Shown: piece by piece, positions 5,338-13,025 of the stretch
How positions within the stretch are numbered: the first letter of the stretch is position 1
Layout of the letters: each line of letters begins with the position of its first letter
Assembly: GCA_029259935.1 (NCBI GenBank)
Contig: JAJDEH010000015.1
Location: 1 to 13,025 of the forward strand
Length of the DNA: 13,025 nt
Source: Planctomycetota bacterium
GTDB lineage: Bacteria; Planctomycetota; Planctomycetia; Pirellulales; Pirellulaceae
Direction: 5' to 3'
The notes under the pieces: generated by a model
The model's database searches: none
What the model saw: the letters and a program-made list of their open reading frames with translations, nothing else
What the model was told of the DNA's origin: nothing
Position numbers and translations under genes: made by a program

Positions 5338-6030
5338 CTATTCCGCCAGCGGAAAGGCGGATATTCCAACAAGCAACCGCATCAGGACGGTAACGATCAA
5401 ATACAGTCCGTAATGAACCAAGCCACTAAAAAACTCCAAGTCGAGACTGGCGAACGCCACGCCGCCGCCCGCGAGTATCATCAGCGGAATCAACACCGCC
5501 AGCATCGGGATGCTAAAGCCTTCGCTGTCAAAGACGTAAGAATTGACGAATGCCACGAGGGCCCAAATCAATGCATAAACGACGGTGCAGATCCCAATGC
5601 GGGCCAATAGCGACAGGCCTTTGTGAGGCGCGATATCGTCGCCCCGCAGAGCCGCATAACCGCCAAAAACGGCGGGCGGGCCGATCAACAATGCACCCAG
5701 TGCGAGAATACCCATCGGAAACTGCGATTTGTCTTCCACCGACCAGCGGACGGCCAATCCGATAAGCACAATAAGAATGGCCCCCAAGCCGACTCCGACC
5801 GCCATTACCGCCGAAAACTTCGCGTCTTCCCGCGCGATCGGCTTGAGAACCGCCTGCCCCTTGGCGTCCTTGGGGCCAAAGTTCTCGGGCGCGTGGACAA
5901 CCACCTCTTCCATTTTCTCGGGGATGGTGATAACCGCCTTGCACTTCGGGCACGGCCCCTTTTTACCGGCGAATTTCTCACTGACCTTGAACTGCTTTTT
6001 GCATCCCGAACAAATGACATTAATGGGCAT
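5338..6030 (-). CDS. Zinc-ribbon multi-pass membrane protein
   Basis: This 230-residue protein of unknown function starts with a zinc ribbon: C7 and C10 (CSGC), then C27 and C30 (CPKC), followed by a basic and acidic linker (31-72). About five hydrophobic helices follow, near 73-95, 106-127, 141-165, 174-196 and 202-222. The ribbon is therefore expected at the cytoplasmic face. Proteins with this 'MPI..C..C...CP.C' opening followed by membrane helices are frequent in planctomycetes and are usually left as hypothetical. The start at 6030 is chosen because the ribbon is N-terminal in relatives; the open frame continues upstream to 6285, but that extension looks non-coding. No strong ribosome site precedes the ATG. 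It is the first gene of a likely two-gene operon with the HD phosphohydrolase. Confidence 0.8.
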   Translation of the reverse strand: MPINVICSGCKKQFKVSEKFAGKKGPCPKCKAVITIPEKMEEVVVHAPENFGPKDAKGQAVLKPIAREDAKFSAVMAVGVGLGAILIVLIGLAVRWSVEDKSQFPMGILALGALLIGPPAVFGGYAALRGDDIAPHKGLSLLARIGICTVVYALIWALVAFVNSYVFDSEGFSIPMLAVLIPLMILAGGGVAFASLDLEFFSGLVHYGLYLIVTVLMRLLVGISAFPLAE

Positions 6031-6402
6031 ACGGCTTGGCGATTCGGCGAACTCGAAAAGGGGGAAAAGAATAGATGCCTCTAGTTTGTCAGACTCGCCG
6101 CCAAGGTCAACAGTAGGGGGCCGGCCGTTGGTCGGAGAGTCCTGGCAGGGGCTACGACTTGGCAAAAACTCGGCGCTCGCGGAGTCGGTCGATCCAATGG
6201 AAAAGGCATTCATCTGAGGGGATCGGCAGCTTTTCGGTGAATCGCTCGAATTTGCCGAAGCGACATTGCCCGCTTTCGGTAGCACGGATCAGACAGCCAC
6301 CAGAGCATGCCGGCCCGCACACGATGGGTGCGTCATGGAAAGGCGGCGGGAATTCACGTAAAATGCTGCCTCATTTCTTGGCCACCTTTGAAAGAAAGCA
6401 AA
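6031..6402. other. Non-coding divergent intergenic region
   Basis: About 372 bases separate the divergent zinc-ribbon gene and molybdenum hydroxylase operon. No gene is supported here. A TAAAAT at 6359-6364 could be a -10 element for the hydroxylase operon, but the matching -35 is poor. On the minus strand TTGACC (about 6107-6112) could be a -35 for the zinc-ribbon gene, with no good -10 beside it. I see no clear operator palindrome or riboswitch. Confidence 0.5.
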
Positions 6403-7362: not shown

Positions 7363-7845
7363 GTGAGCAACAAAATACACGTTACTTGCAACATCAACGG
7401 CGAAACGGCTGAGTTCCTCTGCCAGCCGCGCCAGAGTTTATTGGAAGTACTCCGCGACGAACTGCGGCTAACCGGTGCCAAGGAAGGCTGCAACAACGGC
7501 AATTGCGGCGCGTGCACGGTGATGCTGAACGGCCTGCCGGTCGATAGCTGTTTGGTGCTCGCGGTCGAAGCCGAAGGGGCCGAAATCACCACGATCGAGG
7601 GCATTGCCGATCACGGACACTTGCACGATGTGCAGCAATGTTTCCTGGAAGGCGCGGCGTTGCAATGCGGCATTTGCACTCCCGGATTTATCGTCGCGGC
7701 CAAGGCGCTGTTGGATAAAGAGCCTCAGCCCACCGAAGAGCAAATCCGTTTCAACTTGGCAGGCAACCTATGTCGCTGCACGGGCTACGACAAGATCATT
7801 CGATCCGTCCAACAAGCTGCCCACAAGATGCAGGAGTCCAACTAA
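7363..7845 (+). CDS. Molybdenum hydroxylase [2Fe-2S] subunit (CoxS/XdhC-small-subunit-like)
   Basis: This 160-residue subunit carries two [2Fe-2S] clusters linking the Mo site to FAD. The plant-ferredoxin-type cluster ligands are C43, C48, C51 and C63 (EGCNNGNCGACTV and DSC). The second, four-helix-bundle cluster has C102, C105, C137 and C139 (LQCGICTPGF and NLCRCTGY). All eight cysteines are present and the length is typical. The start is GTG at 7363, with AGGA 6 bases upstream. The stop TAA shares its last A with the ATG of the Mo subunit, which implies translational coupling and equal expression of the two. Confidence 0.95.
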   Translation: MSNKIHVTCNINGETAEFLCQPRQSLLEVLRDELRLTGAKEGCNNGNCGACTVMLNGLPVDSCLVLAVEAEGAEITTIEGIADHGHLHDVQQCFLEGAALQCGICTPGFIVAAKALLDKEPQPTEEQIRFNLAGNLCRCTGYDKIIRSVQQAAHKMQESN

Positions 7846-10142
7846 TGAACGACAAAACATCCAACGGCAACACATCCAACGGCAACATCGTCCTCTCGAA
7901 TCCGGAAGAGAAGTACAAAGTCATTGGCACGCGTCCCGTGCGCCACGACGGCGCGGACAAAGTGACCGGCAAGGCGGTCTACACCGCCGACCTGCAATTG
8001 CCGAACCTTGTACACGCGAAGATGTTGCGCAGTCCCCATGCCCATGCGCGGATCAAGTCGATCGACACTTCGAAAGCGGAACAGCTCGCCGGCGTTCTGG
8101 CCGTCGCCACGGCGGCCGACATTCCCGACCCCGAGGACAAGATCGCCCATCTGGGCGAAGGCAATGTCAACCTCACGCATCTGGCTTCCAACGTGCTGGC
8201 ACGCGGCAAAGTGCTTTACAAGGGCCACGCCGTTGCCGCCGTCGCCGCGCGAGACCTACACACCGCCGAGCAAGCCGTGAAGCTGATTGAAGTCGAATAC
8301 GAGCCGCTTCCCGCCGTCGTCGATATTCGCGACGCGATGAAAGACGACGCTCCCTTGCTGCACGAGAACGTGCATACCGATTCGCTGGGAAAGCTGTCGA
8401 AAAAGCCAAGCAACATCGATCGGCATCTGCACTTTGCAAAGGGCCAACTCGAGCAAGGTTTGGCCGAAGCCGACGTCGTGGTCGAAAGGGAATTCCACAC
8501 CGCCAGCGTTCATCAGGGCTACATCGAACCGCACGCCGCCGTGGCTGATTGGAATGAAGACGGACGGCTGCGCATTTGGACCGCGACCCAAGGCTCGTTC
8601 ACCTGCCGCCAGCAAACGGCCGAACTCCTAAAAATCCCGCTCTCCAGCGTCCTGGTAACTCCCTGCGAAATTGGCGGCGGCTTCGGCGGCAAGATCGCGG
8701 TTTATCTACAGCCGGTCGCCGCCGTGCTGAGCCGCAAATGTGGCCACCCGGTGAAGCTTACCATGCAGCGCGACGAAGTCTTCGAAGGGACGGGGCCGAC
8801 GCCCGGTTCCTACATGCGGGTCAAGATCGGCGCGACCAAGGACGGCCGGATCACGGCGGGCGAAGCTTACATCGCATTCGAGGCGGGCGCGTTTCCAGGC
8901 GGTCCGATCGGCCCCGGCTGCATGTGCGTTTTTAGCTGCTACGAATTTCCGCACGCGAAAGTCGACGGCTACAACGTCTGTGTGAACAAGCCAAAAACGC
9001 AGGCCTATCGCGCCCCCGGCTCGACACAAGCGGCGTTCGCCTGCGAAAGCGTGATCGACGAATTGGCTCATGAACTGAACATCGATCCCCTCGAGTTCCG
9101 TTTGAAGAACGCGGCGAAAGAGGGCACGCGCCGTGTCGACGGCCCGGCCTATCCCAGGGTCGGTTGCATCGAAACGCTACGGGCCGCGAAGGAAAGTGAT
9201 CATTGGAATTCGTCCCTCGAAGGCCCGCACCGGGGACGTGGCATCGCCACCGGTTTCTGGTTCAACGCCGGACTCAAGTCGAGCGTCACCGCCAACGTCA
9301 ACGCGGACGGCACGGTCAATTTGTTGGAAGGCTCGACCGACATCGGCGGTTCGCGTACGTCGATCGCCATGCAACTGGCCGAGACACTTGGCATCACCGC
9401 CGAAGAGGTGAACCCGCAAGTCATGGACACCGACAGCGTGGGTTACACCGACGTCACGGGCGGCAGCCGGGTCACGTTCGCCACGGGACTGGCCGCCTAT
9501 GAAGCGGCGCTCGACATCGAGCGGCAAATGAAAGAACTCGCCGCCAAAGTCTGGCGATGCGATTCGGAAGATGTATCCGTGCAAGACGGCGTTTATCAGC
9601 AGAATGGCAATTCGGCAACCTTCAAGGAATTGGCGGCTCAAATGCTGCCCACGGGCCAGGGCATCACGGGCCGTGCGTCGGTCTCTCCGGAAAGCTCGAC
9701 CAACGGCTTTGGCACGCATATCGTGGATGTCGAAGTCGACGTGGAAACCGGCAAGGTCGCGATCTTGCGATACACCGCAATTCAAGACGCCGGCAAAGCG
9801 ATCCATCCCAGCTATGTCGAAGGCCAGATGCAAGGCGGCGCGGTCCAAGGAATCGGCTGGGCATTGAATGAAGAGTACTTTTTCGACGACGCCGGCCAAA
9901 TGAAAAATGCCAGCTTCCTCGACTACCGCATGCCGACGGCCTACGACTTGCCGATGATCGAGACGATTATCGTCGAAGTGCCTAATCCCGATCATCCGTA
10001 CGGCGTGCGAGGAGTCGGCGAGACTCCGATCGTGCCACCGCCGGCCGCCATCGCCAACGCCATCCGCAACGCCGTCGGCCTCCGCATGTGCGACCTGCCC
10101 ATCTCGCCCCCGCGCCTTTGGAAAGCGCTGGCAACGAGTTAA
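7845..10142 (+). CDS. Molybdenum hydroxylase catalytic (molybdopterin-binding) subunit
   Basis: This 765-residue catalytic subunit belongs to the xanthine dehydrogenase/aldehyde oxidase/CO dehydrogenase superfamily. The N-terminal domain begins RPVRHDGADKVTGKAVYTAD (30-49). Molybdopterin-contacting motifs are GGGFGGK (277-283) and AYRAPGSTQAAFA (387-399). QGIGWALNEEYFFD (668-681) and GVGET (723-727) follow; E726 is in the position of the catalytic glutamate that activates Mo-OH/water. The CoxL-specific loop with Cys (VAYRCSFR) is absent, so this is not a form I CO dehydrogenase; the substrate is probably an N-heterocycle, aldehyde or aromatic compound. No Tat signal is seen, so it is presumably cytoplasmic. 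The start at 7845 has AGGAG 8 bases upstream and overlaps the previous stop by one base. Residues 5-14 are a duplicated TSNGN. No maturation factor (XdhC/CoxD-F type) lies in the window. Confidence 0.95.
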   Translation: MNDKTSNGNTSNGNIVLSNPEEKYKVIGTRPVRHDGADKVTGKAVYTADLQLPNLVHAKMLRSPHAHARIKSIDTSKAEQLAGVLAVATAADIPDPEDKIAHLGEGNVNLTHLASNVLARGKVLYKGHAVAAVAARDLHTAEQAVKLIEVEYEPLPAVVDIRDAMKDDAPLLHENVHTDSLGKLSKKPSNIDRHLHFAKGQLEQGLAEADVVVEREFHTASVHQGYIEPHAAVADWNEDGRLRIWTATQGSFTCRQQTAELLKIPLSSVLVTPCEIGGGFGGKIAVYLQPVAAVLSRKCGHPVKLTMQRDEVFEGTGPTPGSYMRVKIGATKDGRITAGEAYIAFEAGAFPGGPIGPGCMCVFSCYEFPHAKVDGYNVCVNKPKTQAYRAPGSTQAAFACESVIDELAHELNIDPLEFRLKNAAKEGTRRVDGPAYPRVGCIETLRAAKESDHWNSSLEGPHRGRGIATGFWFNAGLKSSVTANVNADGTVNLLEGSTDIGGSRTSIAMQLAETLGITAEEVNPQVMDTDSVGYTDVTGGSRVTFATGLAAYEAALDIERQMKELAAKVWRCDSEDVSVQDGVYQQNGNSATFKELAAQMLPTGQGITGRASVSPESSTNGFGTHIVDVEVDVETGKVAILRYTAIQDAGKAIHPSYVEGQMQGGAVQGIGWALNEEYFFDDAGQMKNASFLDYRMPTAYDLPMIETIIVEVPNPDHPYGVRGVGETPIVPPPAAIANAIRNAVGLRMCDLPISPPRLWKALATS
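7857..7886 (+). repeat. Perfect 15-bp tandem duplication inside the Mo-subunit gene
   Basis: The 15-mer ACATCCAACGGCAAC occurs twice head to tail. It encodes TSNGN-TSNGN at residues 5-14 of the Mo subunit, in the poorly conserved N-terminal tail ahead of the first domain. It keeps the frame and is probably a recent slippage duplication. Confidence 0.85.
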
Positions 10143-10199: not shown

Positions 10200-10228
10200 T
10201 TGACGTGGCGTTCATCATTTCAGATTAT
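10200..10228 (+). promoter_or_regulatory. Sigma70-like promoter for the kinase cassette
   Basis: TTGACG (10200-10205) and GATTAT (10223-10228) are separated by exactly 17 bases. The -35 matches consensus at 5 of 6 positions and the -10 at 4 of 6. It would start transcription about 35 bases before the first small gene and gives the cassette its own promoter, separate from the hydroxylase operon. Confidence 0.45.
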
Positions 10229-10268
10229 TCACCACTTACCACATGCCAGAATTAGCCAGGAGGCACCC

Positions 10269-10508
10269 ATGTTGTCCACGGATCGAGAACATCCCGCGTG
10301 TCGACTCAGCGTTGACGGATATCGAACACTTAATGAAGTAAACGATACGTTCCGTCGACTTTTGAAGGCCGCCGCGCTAGAATCTAATGATCCGGCAGGC
10401 GGGCCCGCCGGGACCGAAACCGTACTCAAAGCCGCCAAACAGGTCTGCGAATCAGGCTGGTTAGGACACTTCGAGGCATGCGATGAGCGACCCAAAGAAG
10501 CTGCGTGA
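10269..10508 (+). CDS. Small unknown protein, first gene of the kinase cassette (candidate antitoxin)
   Basis: This 79-residue protein is not recognised. The start at 10269 is strongly supported by a full AGGAGG 5 bases upstream; the longer frame from 10200 overlaps the putative promoter. The protein is soluble, with no signal peptide or membrane helix. It has a predicted helical stretch (about 21-37, LNEVNDTFRRLLKAAAL), a Gly/Pro turn (GGPAG) and a second helix (about 50-65). No clear helix-turn-helix or ribbon-helix-helix motif is visible. Its last 26 bases overlap the next gene, whose start lies in another frame, so the two are translationally coupled. Size, strong ribosome site and position upstream of a zeta-like kinase suggest an antitoxin or regulatory partner, but this is inference from context. 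Confidence 0.7.
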   Translation: MLSTDREHPACRLSVDGYRTLNEVNDTFRRLLKAAALESNDPAGGPAGTETVLKAAKQVCESGWLGHFEACDERPKEAA

Positions 10509-10953
10509 GAATCGAGAATCGGACGGCGCGGCGGGTGAATGGGACGAATTCCCGTTTCATGAAGAGCTAGACGAATTCGTCGGCCACCTGCGGGGGCATT
10601 TATTCGAAGGACTTCGCGACAGGCAACTGTCTATCGCGGCCGACGATGAGGTCGTTCAGATGCTGGCGTGGTTGACATCGGACTTTGCAGGCCAAGTGCG
10701 GCGGCTTGCCCCGGAGACCGAAAACTGGCAACAGCTACTCCAACGAATCAAGATTCCGGAGTCCGTGGGCGATTGTCTGGCGGCGATCCAAACCGAAACG
10801 GGCGCGACTCGACTTCACGAGCACTTGACTCAGCTGCCATTTCCTCATTTCGAAGTTAGTCCCGACGACCCGAACATTCTCATTCGGATCAGCCAAGATG
10901 GTACTCGGACGATCGGCCGATTTGTCGATAGAGAGTTCAAGCCGGCAGGGTGA
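10483..10953 (+). CDS. Unknown 156-residue acidic protein, middle gene of the kinase cassette
   Basis: Not recognised as a named family. The ATG at 10483 has GAGG 6 bases upstream. The N-terminal half is strongly acidic (EWDEFPFHEELDEF, 19-32), which resembles antitoxins that occupy a basic toxin surface. A helical middle follows (about 55-105). The C-terminal end, FEVSPDDPNILIRISQDG and then TRTIGRFVDREFKPAG (123-156), looks like a small beta-rich module ending in a basic segment. No signal peptide or membrane segment is present. Its start lies inside the first gene (26-base overlap), and its TGA overlaps the ATG of the kinase gene (TGATG). Such tight coupling on both sides argues that the three proteins work together, perhaps with this one as the direct neutraliser of the kinase. 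Confidence 0.75.
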   Translation: MSDPKKLRENRESDGAAGEWDEFPFHEELDEFVGHLRGHLFEGLRDRQLSIAADDEVVQMLAWLTSDFAGQVRRLAPETENWQQLLQRIKIPESVGDCLAAIQTETGATRLHEHLTQLPFPHFEVSPDDPNILIRISQDGTRTIGRFVDREFKPAG

Positions 10954-11534
10954 TGGACTACACCATTCTCGACCAGCGCCCGGTTGTTGTTGCGATTGCC
11001 GGTCCAAACGGTGCCGGCAAGTCGACATTCTTTCACGCATTCCTCGAGTACGCCGGCCTTCCATTTGTTAACGCCGACATTCTTGCCAAGCTTCACCATT
11101 TAGACCCCTACATCGCTGCGGACGCCGCCGGAGTGTTGAGGCGTGACTTTGTCGGCAGGTCCGAGAGCTTCATTTTTGAAACAGTGTTTTCGGATCCAGT
11201 GGGCGATAAGCTGGGATTTCTAAAGGAAACGGCGCAAGCCAGCTTTAATGTTGTTCTGTGCTTCATTGGCGTTGCCAGCGCCGACGTGTCCGAGCAACGG
11301 GTTTGCATGCGGGTTCAACAGGGAGGGCACGATGTCCCAACGGAAAAACTCCGCTCACGTTTCGAGCGAACGATGAACAATCTGCGCAACTCACTCCTCG
11401 TCCTACCGCACGTCCTGGTGTACGACAATGACGACTTGTCGCGACCATTTCGGCAAGTTGCCTATTATCAGAACGGCAAGCCAGTGCAGTTGTCTGATGA
11501 TCTGCCCCCGTGGCTGGCTGGAATTCTTCCGTAA
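10953..11534 (+). CDS. Zeta-toxin-like P-loop kinase
   Basis: This 193-residue kinase of the zeta toxin/predicted ABC-type ATPase class (COG4185-like) has a Walker A GPNGAGKST at 17-25 (K23, S24). FVNADIL (38-44) places D42 where zeta toxins have the catalytic aspartate. FETVFS (75-80) and RVQQGGHDVPTEKLRSRF (120-137) are the substrate- and phosphate-binding 'R-V-x-x-G-G-H-x-V-P' signature. Zeta toxins phosphorylate UDP-N-acetylglucosamine and block cell-wall synthesis; others in this class have different or unknown substrates. The ATG at 10953 overlaps the preceding TGA by one base; a GTG at 10950 would add one residue. No separate ribosome site is well placed, so translation probably depends on the upstream gene. 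The length is normal and the C-terminus (PPWLAGILP) looks intact, so the insertion sequence downstream did not truncate it. Confidence 0.88.
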   Translation: MDYTILDQRPVVVAIAGPNGAGKSTFFHAFLEYAGLPFVNADILAKLHHLDPYIAADAAGVLRRDFVGRSESFIFETVFSDPVGDKLGFLKETAQASFNVVLCFIGVASADVSEQRVCMRVQQGGHDVPTEKLRSRFERTMNNLRNSLLVLPHVLVYDNDDLSRPFRQVAYYQNGKPVQLSDDLPPWLAGILP

Positions 11535-11660: not shown

Positions 11661-13025
11661 ATGGAACTTACCAGTTCGTTCGAGTCTTTGCTACTGACGT
11701 TCTCGCCGGTGTTCACCACACCCAGTTTTCAAACCTTTCGGTTGCTGATGACGGGCTGGATTCTGTCGGTGCGGCACCGTTACGTCACCGATCTGATTCT
11801 CTCCAGCGATTCGGTCGGCAATGGACACTTCAGCGATTACCACCGCTTCTTCTCTCAAGCGGTCTGGGAAATCGACCACCTTTGGAAGGTGCTGGCGAAG
11901 CTCATCGTGTCCTCTCTAATCGGTCCAGACGCCACGATCGTGCTGGCCGGAGATGACACGCTCTGCCGCAAACGCGGACTGGGCATCTTCGGCACCGGCA
12001 TGCACCACGATGCGCTCAGTTCATCGAAGTCCAAAAAGATCTGCCACTGGGGGCACGACTGGGTCGATTTGTGCATCGTCATCAGCAACCCGTGGTGGGC
12101 GCCGAGCAAGGTCTTCTCGCTGCCCATTTGCATGCGGCTGTACCGCAACAAGCAAGGACTCACCAAAGGCAAAGGCAAACGCAAGAAGAAGCTCACGGCA
12201 AGCCAGGTTCGCGCCGCATCGAAACAAGCCAAACGCGCCGCGGCGGCGAAGAAGAAATCCGCTGCCAATGCCAAGAGGAATCACAAAGTGGACGCAAAAG
12301 CCCATCGAACACGGCCCGAATTGATGGCCCAGATGATCGCTTTGATTGCCGCCTGGTTCCCCGATCGCCGGTTCGTCCTCGTGGTCGACAGCCTCTACAG
12401 TGGCAAAAGCGTGCTGTCGAAGCTGCCAGATAATTTTGATTTGATCGGCCCGGTGCATGCCCAGGCGGCCCTTTATGCGCCGGCACCCAAGCAGACGAAA
12501 GTCCGTCGCGGCCCGCGATGCAAAAAGGGCGATCGACTGAAGAGCGCCGAGGCTTGGGAGCAAGACCGCACCCGCTGGAAGACGCTGCACTTCGATCAGT
12601 ACGGCTTGCATGGTTCGCTGCGCGTGAAGACGCGAACCGGGCTGTACTACAAAGCAGGCAAGGATCGGTTGCTGCGTTTTGTGCTTTCGCAAGACACCGT
12701 GGGCAGTCGGCCAACGCGGATCTTTTACAGCACCGATGTGAGCTTGGAGCCGCGCGAGATCCTTTCTAAATTCTCGCTGCGTTGGTCGATCGAGGTGACG
12801 CACTATGATTGCAAGCAGCACCTTGGTCTGGAAGACCCGGCGAACCGAACTCCGTTGGCGGTGCAACGAACCGCGCCGATGGCGATGTTCCTGTACAGCC
12901 TCACGATCGTGTGGTTCGCGACCGAAGGGCATGCCGATCTGCAGTTCCCCGATCGACCGTGGTACTACTGGAAATCACAGCCGAGTTTCGCCGACATGTT
13001 AACGACATTACGCCGAAATAGCTGG
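11661..13025 (+). CDS. DDE transposase (IS4/IS701-like), 3' end cut by window edge
   Basis: 455 uninterrupted codons run to the last base of the window; the stop lies beyond. The probable catalytic triad is D98 or D99 (VLAGDDTLCRK), D243 (LVVDSLYSGKSV) and E378 (RWSIEVTHYDCKQHLG). The E-x6-K spacing to K385 is the signature of IS4-type RNase H-fold transposases. Between the first two aspartates lies a highly basic stretch (about 165-216) dominated by Lys, Arg and Ala, probably a DNA-binding or flexible insertion. The start is ATG 11661, with GGAAG 9 bases upstream and a leader of nested inverted repeats. The reading frame is intact, so the element may still be active. An antisense open frame of about 300 codons across it is a shadow. 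Confidence 0.88.
   Translation, partial: MELTSSFESLLLTFSPVFTTPSFQTFRLLMTGWILSVRHRYVTDLILSSDSVGNGHFSDYHRFFSQAVWEIDHLWKVLAKLIVSSLIGPDATIVLAGDDTLCRKRGLGIFGTGMHHDALSSSKSKKICHWGHDWVDLCIVISNPWWAPSKVFSLPICMRLYRNKQGLTKGKGKRKKKLTASQVRAASKQAKRAAAAKKKSAANAKRNHKVDAKAHRTRPELMAQMIALIAAWFPDRRFVLVVDSLYSGKSVLSKLPDNFDLIGPVHAQAALYAPAPKQTKVRRGPRCKKGDRLKSAEAWEQDRTRWKTLHFDQYGLHGSLRVKTRTGLYYKAGKDRLLRFVLSQDTVGSRPTRIFYSTDVSLEPREILSKFSLRWSIEVTHYDCKQHLGLEDPANRTPLAVQRTAPMAMFLYSLTIVWFATEGHADLQFPDRPWYYWKSQPSFADMLTTLRRNSW

Follow-up and report, generated by a model that had tools for sequence, protein, structure and literature searches.

The combination of a ParD_like antitoxin with a Zeta_toxin kinase was named by TASmania as one that could be a new toxin-antitoxin (TA) family, and the Mycobacterium tuberculosis pair Rv0367c-Rv0366c is filed there (PMC6504116, in excerpt). 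According to excerpts of PMC6362051, this pair is bacteriostatic and rescuable, and its kinase is described as being without the UNAG site, with a substrate other than UNAG predicted by the authors. The same authors put aside the ParD-like assignment of the antitoxin and termed the pair PezAT-like, and for a similar mycobacterial pair the homology of the antitoxin to ParD was denied by its authors (excerpt of PMC5728571). Omega-epsilon-zeta has a zeta-family toxin and the gene order regulator-antitoxin-toxin (excerpt of PMC4803016), and PezAT has a zeta-family toxin with the antitoxin upstream (excerpts of PMC4803016 and PMC6362051). In PaaR-PaaA-ParE, a separate regulator and a different antitoxin stand in place of the usual ParD (excerpt of PMC4803016).

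We analysed a 13,025-nucleotide stretch of a Planctomycetota contig (the window), in which a preliminary description had noted a cassette of three genes, here called g1, g2 and the kinase, and had set it in the frame of epsilon/zeta and PezAT. The zeta-type nature of the module held, but the closest described system is the ParD_like (PF11903)/Zeta_toxin pair rather than epsilon/zeta or PezAT, a link that the preliminary description had overlooked. The locus resembles this pair in having a zeta-type kinase with an antitoxin gene directly upstream. The C-terminal tail of g2 is common to the 36 relatives found here; the mycobacterial pair is likened to them by description only. The pair has two genes and an RHH start on the antitoxin, whereas the window has no RHH and an extra gene, g1, in first position, and instead of the two-gene, antitoxin-first layout we found three overlapping genes in five genomes. 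In comparison with omega-epsilon-zeta, whose toxin family and gene order the proposed module would share, no sequence link was found between g1 and omega or between g2 and epsilon, and the window g2 has a ParD_like-type tail. PezA is a single protein with an HTH start, whereas g1 and g2 gave no HTH match. By analogy of design, PaaR-PaaA-ParE is the nearest precedent, although its toxin is ParE and its other proteins are different. Our preferred reading of the locus, to which we give a probability of about 0.6, is a chromosomal tripartite TA module with a zeta toxin, in which g2 would act as antitoxin through its tail and g1, perhaps together with the g2 N-terminus, would serve for the RHH control.

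Gene layout and neighbourhood

The three overlapping genes of the preliminary description were confirmed as real by the ORF calls and by the window sequence. The first gene, g1 (10269..10508, + strand), codes for 79 aa of no known family (74 aa in the homologues of L098, L110, L114, and L115) and is a candidate regulator or co-antitoxin. An AGGAGG ribosome-binding site, read from the sequence, lies 5 nt ahead of its ATG (10258..10263, + strand). The middle gene, g2 (ORF of 156 aa, 10483..10953, + strand), overlaps g1 by 26 bp (10483..10508, + strand), and the length of this overlap was identical in 5/5 complete cassettes. Residues 1-92 of g2 (10483..10758, + strand) form the N-terminal region where the RHH would stand and showed no match to the ParD_like N-terminus, and residues 93-156 (10759..10950, + strand) form the C-terminal tail, which is ParD_like-type by profile homology and is the putative kinase-binding part. 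The gene of the zeta-type kinase, a candidate toxin of 193 aa (10953..11534, + strand), starts with the ATG at 10953, which shares 1 base with the g2 stop (TGATG).

The promoter-like TTGACG-17-GATTAT that had been proposed ahead of g1 is present (10200..10228, + strand, 9/12 matches). Sites of this type were found 2 times in 1.6 kb, versus 0.9 ± 0.9 in shuffles, so that the site taken on its own is at chance level. However, TTGA stands at a similar distance in other g1 loci, 72-73 bases 5' of the g1 start in 7/7 compared, with 69 bases in the window.

The insertion sequence reported next door was likewise found. It carries a DDE_5 transposase (E 2e-20), which extends over 11661..13025 (+ strand), runs past the window end and stands outside the module. 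On the 5' side of g1 lies a xanthine-dehydrogenase-type (XDH) gene cluster, with two small subunits assigned by Pfam and the large one (7845-10142) by eye. The large protein was matched at E <= 1e-150 in 36/392 Planctomycetota genomes, with a best identity of 71%. In 12/12 of the relatives' loci fetched, with ~0.7-1.5 kb downstream covered, none of g1, tail, RHH and kinase was near the XDH gene, which is consistent with an accessory insertion of the window module. Further upstream, 5341-6285 (- strand) codes for a 315-aa protein showing a zinc-ribbon-like CxxC stretch by eye and no Pfam match at E 1e-5.

The kinase and the antitoxin tail

The window kinase matched Zeta_toxin (PF06414) with an E-value of 2e-8, past the Pfam cutoff, in agreement with the zeta-like kinase first described. 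We aligned 52 kinases, counting that of the window and omitting 3 Bacteroidota rows. All 52 keep the Walker lysine K23 together with G124, G125, and H126 of the GGH motif, and 51 keep D42. A search by sequence for a relative of solved structure found none at E <= 0.01. By homology, the kinase is a putative zeta-family toxin.

A scan of genome contigs gave kinase relatives at 41 named-genome loci. At 36 of the 41, a tail gene with an RHH N-terminus stood just 5' of the kinase, and neither feature was found at the other five. In two of these (L035 and L036) the kinase lies at the edge of its contig; the other three (L038, L039, and L041) are Bacteroidota loci with a different small upstream gene. 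All representative upstream antitoxins scanned (22/22) matched PF11903 ParD_like. The Bacteroidota gene that precedes the distant family kinase codes for 56-76 aa (L038:4808-5005, L039:4775-5005, and L041:4825-4995); the two tested, those of L038 and L041, had no Pfam family, and these genes are candidates for another antitoxin type.

A profile of the 22 ParD_like antitoxins matched g2 at residues 86-155 only (70 bits, E 1.3e-23), with nothing in the N-terminal part. The match is confined to the tail, so g2 retains the shared antitoxin part without the DNA-binding start. Comparison of g2 with the 36 genes upstream of kinase relatives gave blastp E-values from 8e-21 to 7e-12, and the tail alignment, with g2 included, showed nine invariant columns (residues L115, P119, P121, H122, G140, G145, R146, R150, and F152). 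The structure model of g2 was confident for the tail, with a block of pLDDT 84-96 from residue 101, and was helical with low confidence for residues 1-92.

Searches of Pfam, NCBIfam and PADLOC up to E 1 gave nothing for g2 beyond two sub-threshold Pfam rows. The RHH N-terminus of PF11903 was not matched by g2, versus 22/22 of the ParD_like relatives scanned. Searches of the five g2 proteins against Pfam at E <= 10 gave no HTH family, from which remote similarity could still escape, and the epsilon family was absent among the Pfam matches of g2, where a remote N-terminal similarity could also be missed. Between the N-terminus of the window g2 and its counterparts in the other four cassettes, no homology could be detected. 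With its ParD_like-type tail and no recognisable RHH, g2 very probably serves as the antitoxin. Homology links its tail to that of the ParD_like antitoxins, and this tail would bind the kinase. The role of toxin blocker given earlier to the middle protein stands by virtue of this tail, whereas the acidic N-terminus, from which the role had been argued, is not the evidence for it.

The profile of the C-terminal tail matched 2760 proteins. Among the 120 of them listed, 116 carried PF11903 and the other four were pieces of 73-78 aa. Since g2 was absent among the 120 matches listed, further g2-type proteins may stand lower among the 2760. The tail recognises an antitoxin that Pfam misses.

Recurrence of the cassette and exclusion of RHH

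We surveyed 241 genomes of the family of genome G211 for g2 matches at E <= 0.01. This set includes Aporhodopirellula aestuarii (L021, G003) and Stieleria sedimenti (L024, G004), both of genera that NCBI puts in Pirellulaceae. Matches were found at 47 places in 41/241 genomes, and 46 places were examined; the one omitted was weak (E 0.009), and L021 was read for G003. Among the 46 places, 31 had tail, RHH, and kinase, 4 had tail and kinase without RHH, 2 had tail and RHH without kinase, 6 had the tail alone, and 3 had none of these. The tail was absent from L103, L104, and L105, and the match at L103 was dropped as ParE-like by eye.

Such a patchy occurrence within one family argues against a kinase that is non-toxic, acts on small molecules and has two regulatory subunits, a reading that we consider quite improbable. 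The kinase does weakly resemble P-loop kinases of many functions, but Zeta_toxin is its best family and the g2 tail is of the ParD_like antitoxin type. Moreover, the pair filed elsewhere as ParD_like/zeta is bacteriostatic and rescuable in the excerpted parts of PMC6362051 and PMC6504116.

The four tail and kinase places without RHH (L098, L110, L114, and L115) were exactly the four with a g1 homologue upstream. In all four the g1/g2 overlap was exactly 26 bp, the same as in the window, and the g2/kinase overlap was 11 bp, compared with the window's 1 bp. Two of the four, L114 and L115, are near-copies, and with the window included five complete cassettes are known. The g1-g2-kinase arrangement thus recurs in four more genomes. 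A zeta-type module of three parts with a new set of partners, as suggested in the preliminary description, is supported. Among the loci examined, g1 was present at 5/5 RHH-less tail and kinase loci (two of them near-copies) and at none of the RHH loci. The mutual exclusion of g1 and RHH points to g1, with or without the g2 N-terminus, as the replacement of RHH.

In an evenly drawn set from the phylum, g2 matches were found in 11/392 genomes. Nine of the 11 places had tail, RHH, and kinase, one had tail and RHH, and one had the tail alone, with g1 in none. A draw of 296 genomes from the order gave g1 in 4 genomes, all of which were already in the family set. The L098 cassette is flanked by direct copies (L098:379-642 and L098:2497-2760, 264 bp, 94% identical). 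By eye, these copies correspond to the end of a hydrolase-like gene, and the arrangement looks as if the cassette had been inserted with duplication.

For the window g1, Pfam, NCBIfam and PADLOC gave no family match at a limit of E 1, and the five g1 proteins had no match in Pfam at E <= 10, the RHH repressor omega included. A family, a fold, and a DNA-binding motif were sought for g1 and none was found. A low-confidence, single-sequence structure model of g1 showed helices and no strand, and the protein is not notably basic by eye. Single-sequence searches over 5.8 billion proteins with g1 and with g2 returned self-matches only; the family links of both came to light through gene neighbours and profile searches. 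When g1 was first searched in 392 Planctomycetota genomes, 165 had a match at E <= 1, with a best per-genome E-value of 0.003, which is chance level, and no cassette was visible by eye at L053, L059, and L060 from this search. A profile of six other g1 rows recovered the window g1 at E 9e-8 (13,194 ORFs in 133 sequences), and among the loci fetched it matched zero RHH loci at E <= 0.1. This recovery, together with the same 26-bp overlap in four other genomes, argues that g1 and its cassette are not due to chance.

The g1 proteins of the four cassettes showed 36-39% identity to the window g1. The selection measure omega for g1 was 0.18-0.29 among L098, L110, and L114, and 0.16-0.29 with the orphan copies included, and the next-frame reading of the g1 DNA gave an omega of ~2. 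Between L098, L110, and L114, g2 gave an omega of 0.32-0.43 and the kinase one of 0.09-0.13. By these ratios, purifying selection is acting on g1. The weak codon-usage signal of the window g1, together with the lack of a homologue in the single-sequence protein search, would suit a plain ParD_like/zeta pair of two genes whose antitoxin has diverged, with g1 as a passenger reading frame. We regard this as highly unlikely in view of the presence of g1 at every RHH-less tail and kinase locus, its constant overlap, and its low omega.

In 241 genomes, g1 loci at E <= 1e-8 numbered eight, and four of these were complete cassettes. In L127, g1 is accompanied by fragments of g2 and a weak remnant of the kinase. 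In L120 and L121, g2 is reduced to its first codons and the kinase is missing, and L129, where g1 is less alike, has neither tail nor kinase. Small proteins standing mostly apart from such kinases, which the first description had named as evidence against the module, were not seen among the eight g1 loci of the 241 genomes. The g1 copies in L120, L121, and L127 each adjoin a similar gene, whose L120 version has a weak match to a ParB HTH domain. A recombinase zinc-ribbon domain is also present in L120, and L121 has an ORF like it, with Pfam run on L120 only. Weak g1 matches in G464, G426, and G540 (L130-L132, E 8e-4 to 0.01) had no tail, RHH or kinase and were taken as chance; the L130 match is antisense to a 545-aa ORF.

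Rather than repressing transcription, g1 could work as a sensor, as a chaperone or as a second antitoxin. A serious rival, although one that we hold to be less probable than our preferred reading by some distance, is that g1 stabilises g2, assists it as a chaperone or acts as a second antitoxin, with regulation elsewhere or in g2. g1 has no recognisable DNA-binding domain, and being translated just ahead of g2, over a fixed overlap, would be fitting for a partner of g2. Third components of the PasC kind are known, and PasC is proposed to augment PasA (excerpt of PMC4803016). However, g1 is present exactly where RHH is absent, which points to a replaced RHH function, and at least three loci have g1 but neither an intact g2 nor an intact kinase.

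Another reading, in which the module would serve phage defence or stress sensing and the kinase would be released once g1 or the N-terminus of g2 senses a trigger, appears unlikely. The variable N-terminus on a constant tail, the accessory site beside an insertion sequence, and the recombinase domain adjoining the orphan g1 copy of L120 are all in its favour, but g1 and g2 were without a PADLOC match and one viral-contig scan found no relative of g1.

Proposed working and origin of the module

In our preferred reading of a tripartite TA module, the kinase would be a zeta-family toxin by homology and g2 the antitoxin that grips it through the ParD_like-type C-terminal tail. The regulatory role would have shifted from RHH to g1, which is small, probably helical, translated first, and coupled to g2 via the fixed overlap, and which probably works jointly with the new g2 N-terminus. 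g1, or a complex of g1, g2, and kinase, would bind the operon promoter and repress it. When the labile small proteins are lost, the kinase would be freed to phosphorylate a substrate, and growth would stop.

The kinase tree placed the window with the ParD_like-paired kinases L075, L076, and L078 (support 96/84), and the other cassettes formed a separate clade. A single clade for the three-gene kinases was not rejected (AU p = 0.17). Because its kinase groups with ParD_like-paired kinases, the window cassette is maybe not an intact descendant of the line of the other cassettes, and the control part may have been either transferred between kinases or lost in lineages. We propose, tentatively and with the odds somewhat against it, that g1 founds an undescribed family of TA control, and that g1 and the variable g2 N-terminus form an exchangeable unit that replaced RHH on at least two zeta-kinase lineages while the tail was kept.

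These results suggest that the ParD_like/zeta antitoxin is modular, with the putative kinase-binding tail kept and the control domain swapped for a two-protein arrangement. g1, g2, and the kinase make a small testable set for the rewiring of TA regulation. In L095, L100, and L113, and in the fragment L107, the tail shares a reading frame with an RlaP-type nucleotidyltransferase, with no RHH and no kinase nearby. For L095 the assignment comes from a match of the stretch to PF10127 (E 2e-49); by eye, L100 and L113 are similar, and L107 ends early. The tail in these loci is possibly a reuse of the antitoxin tail.
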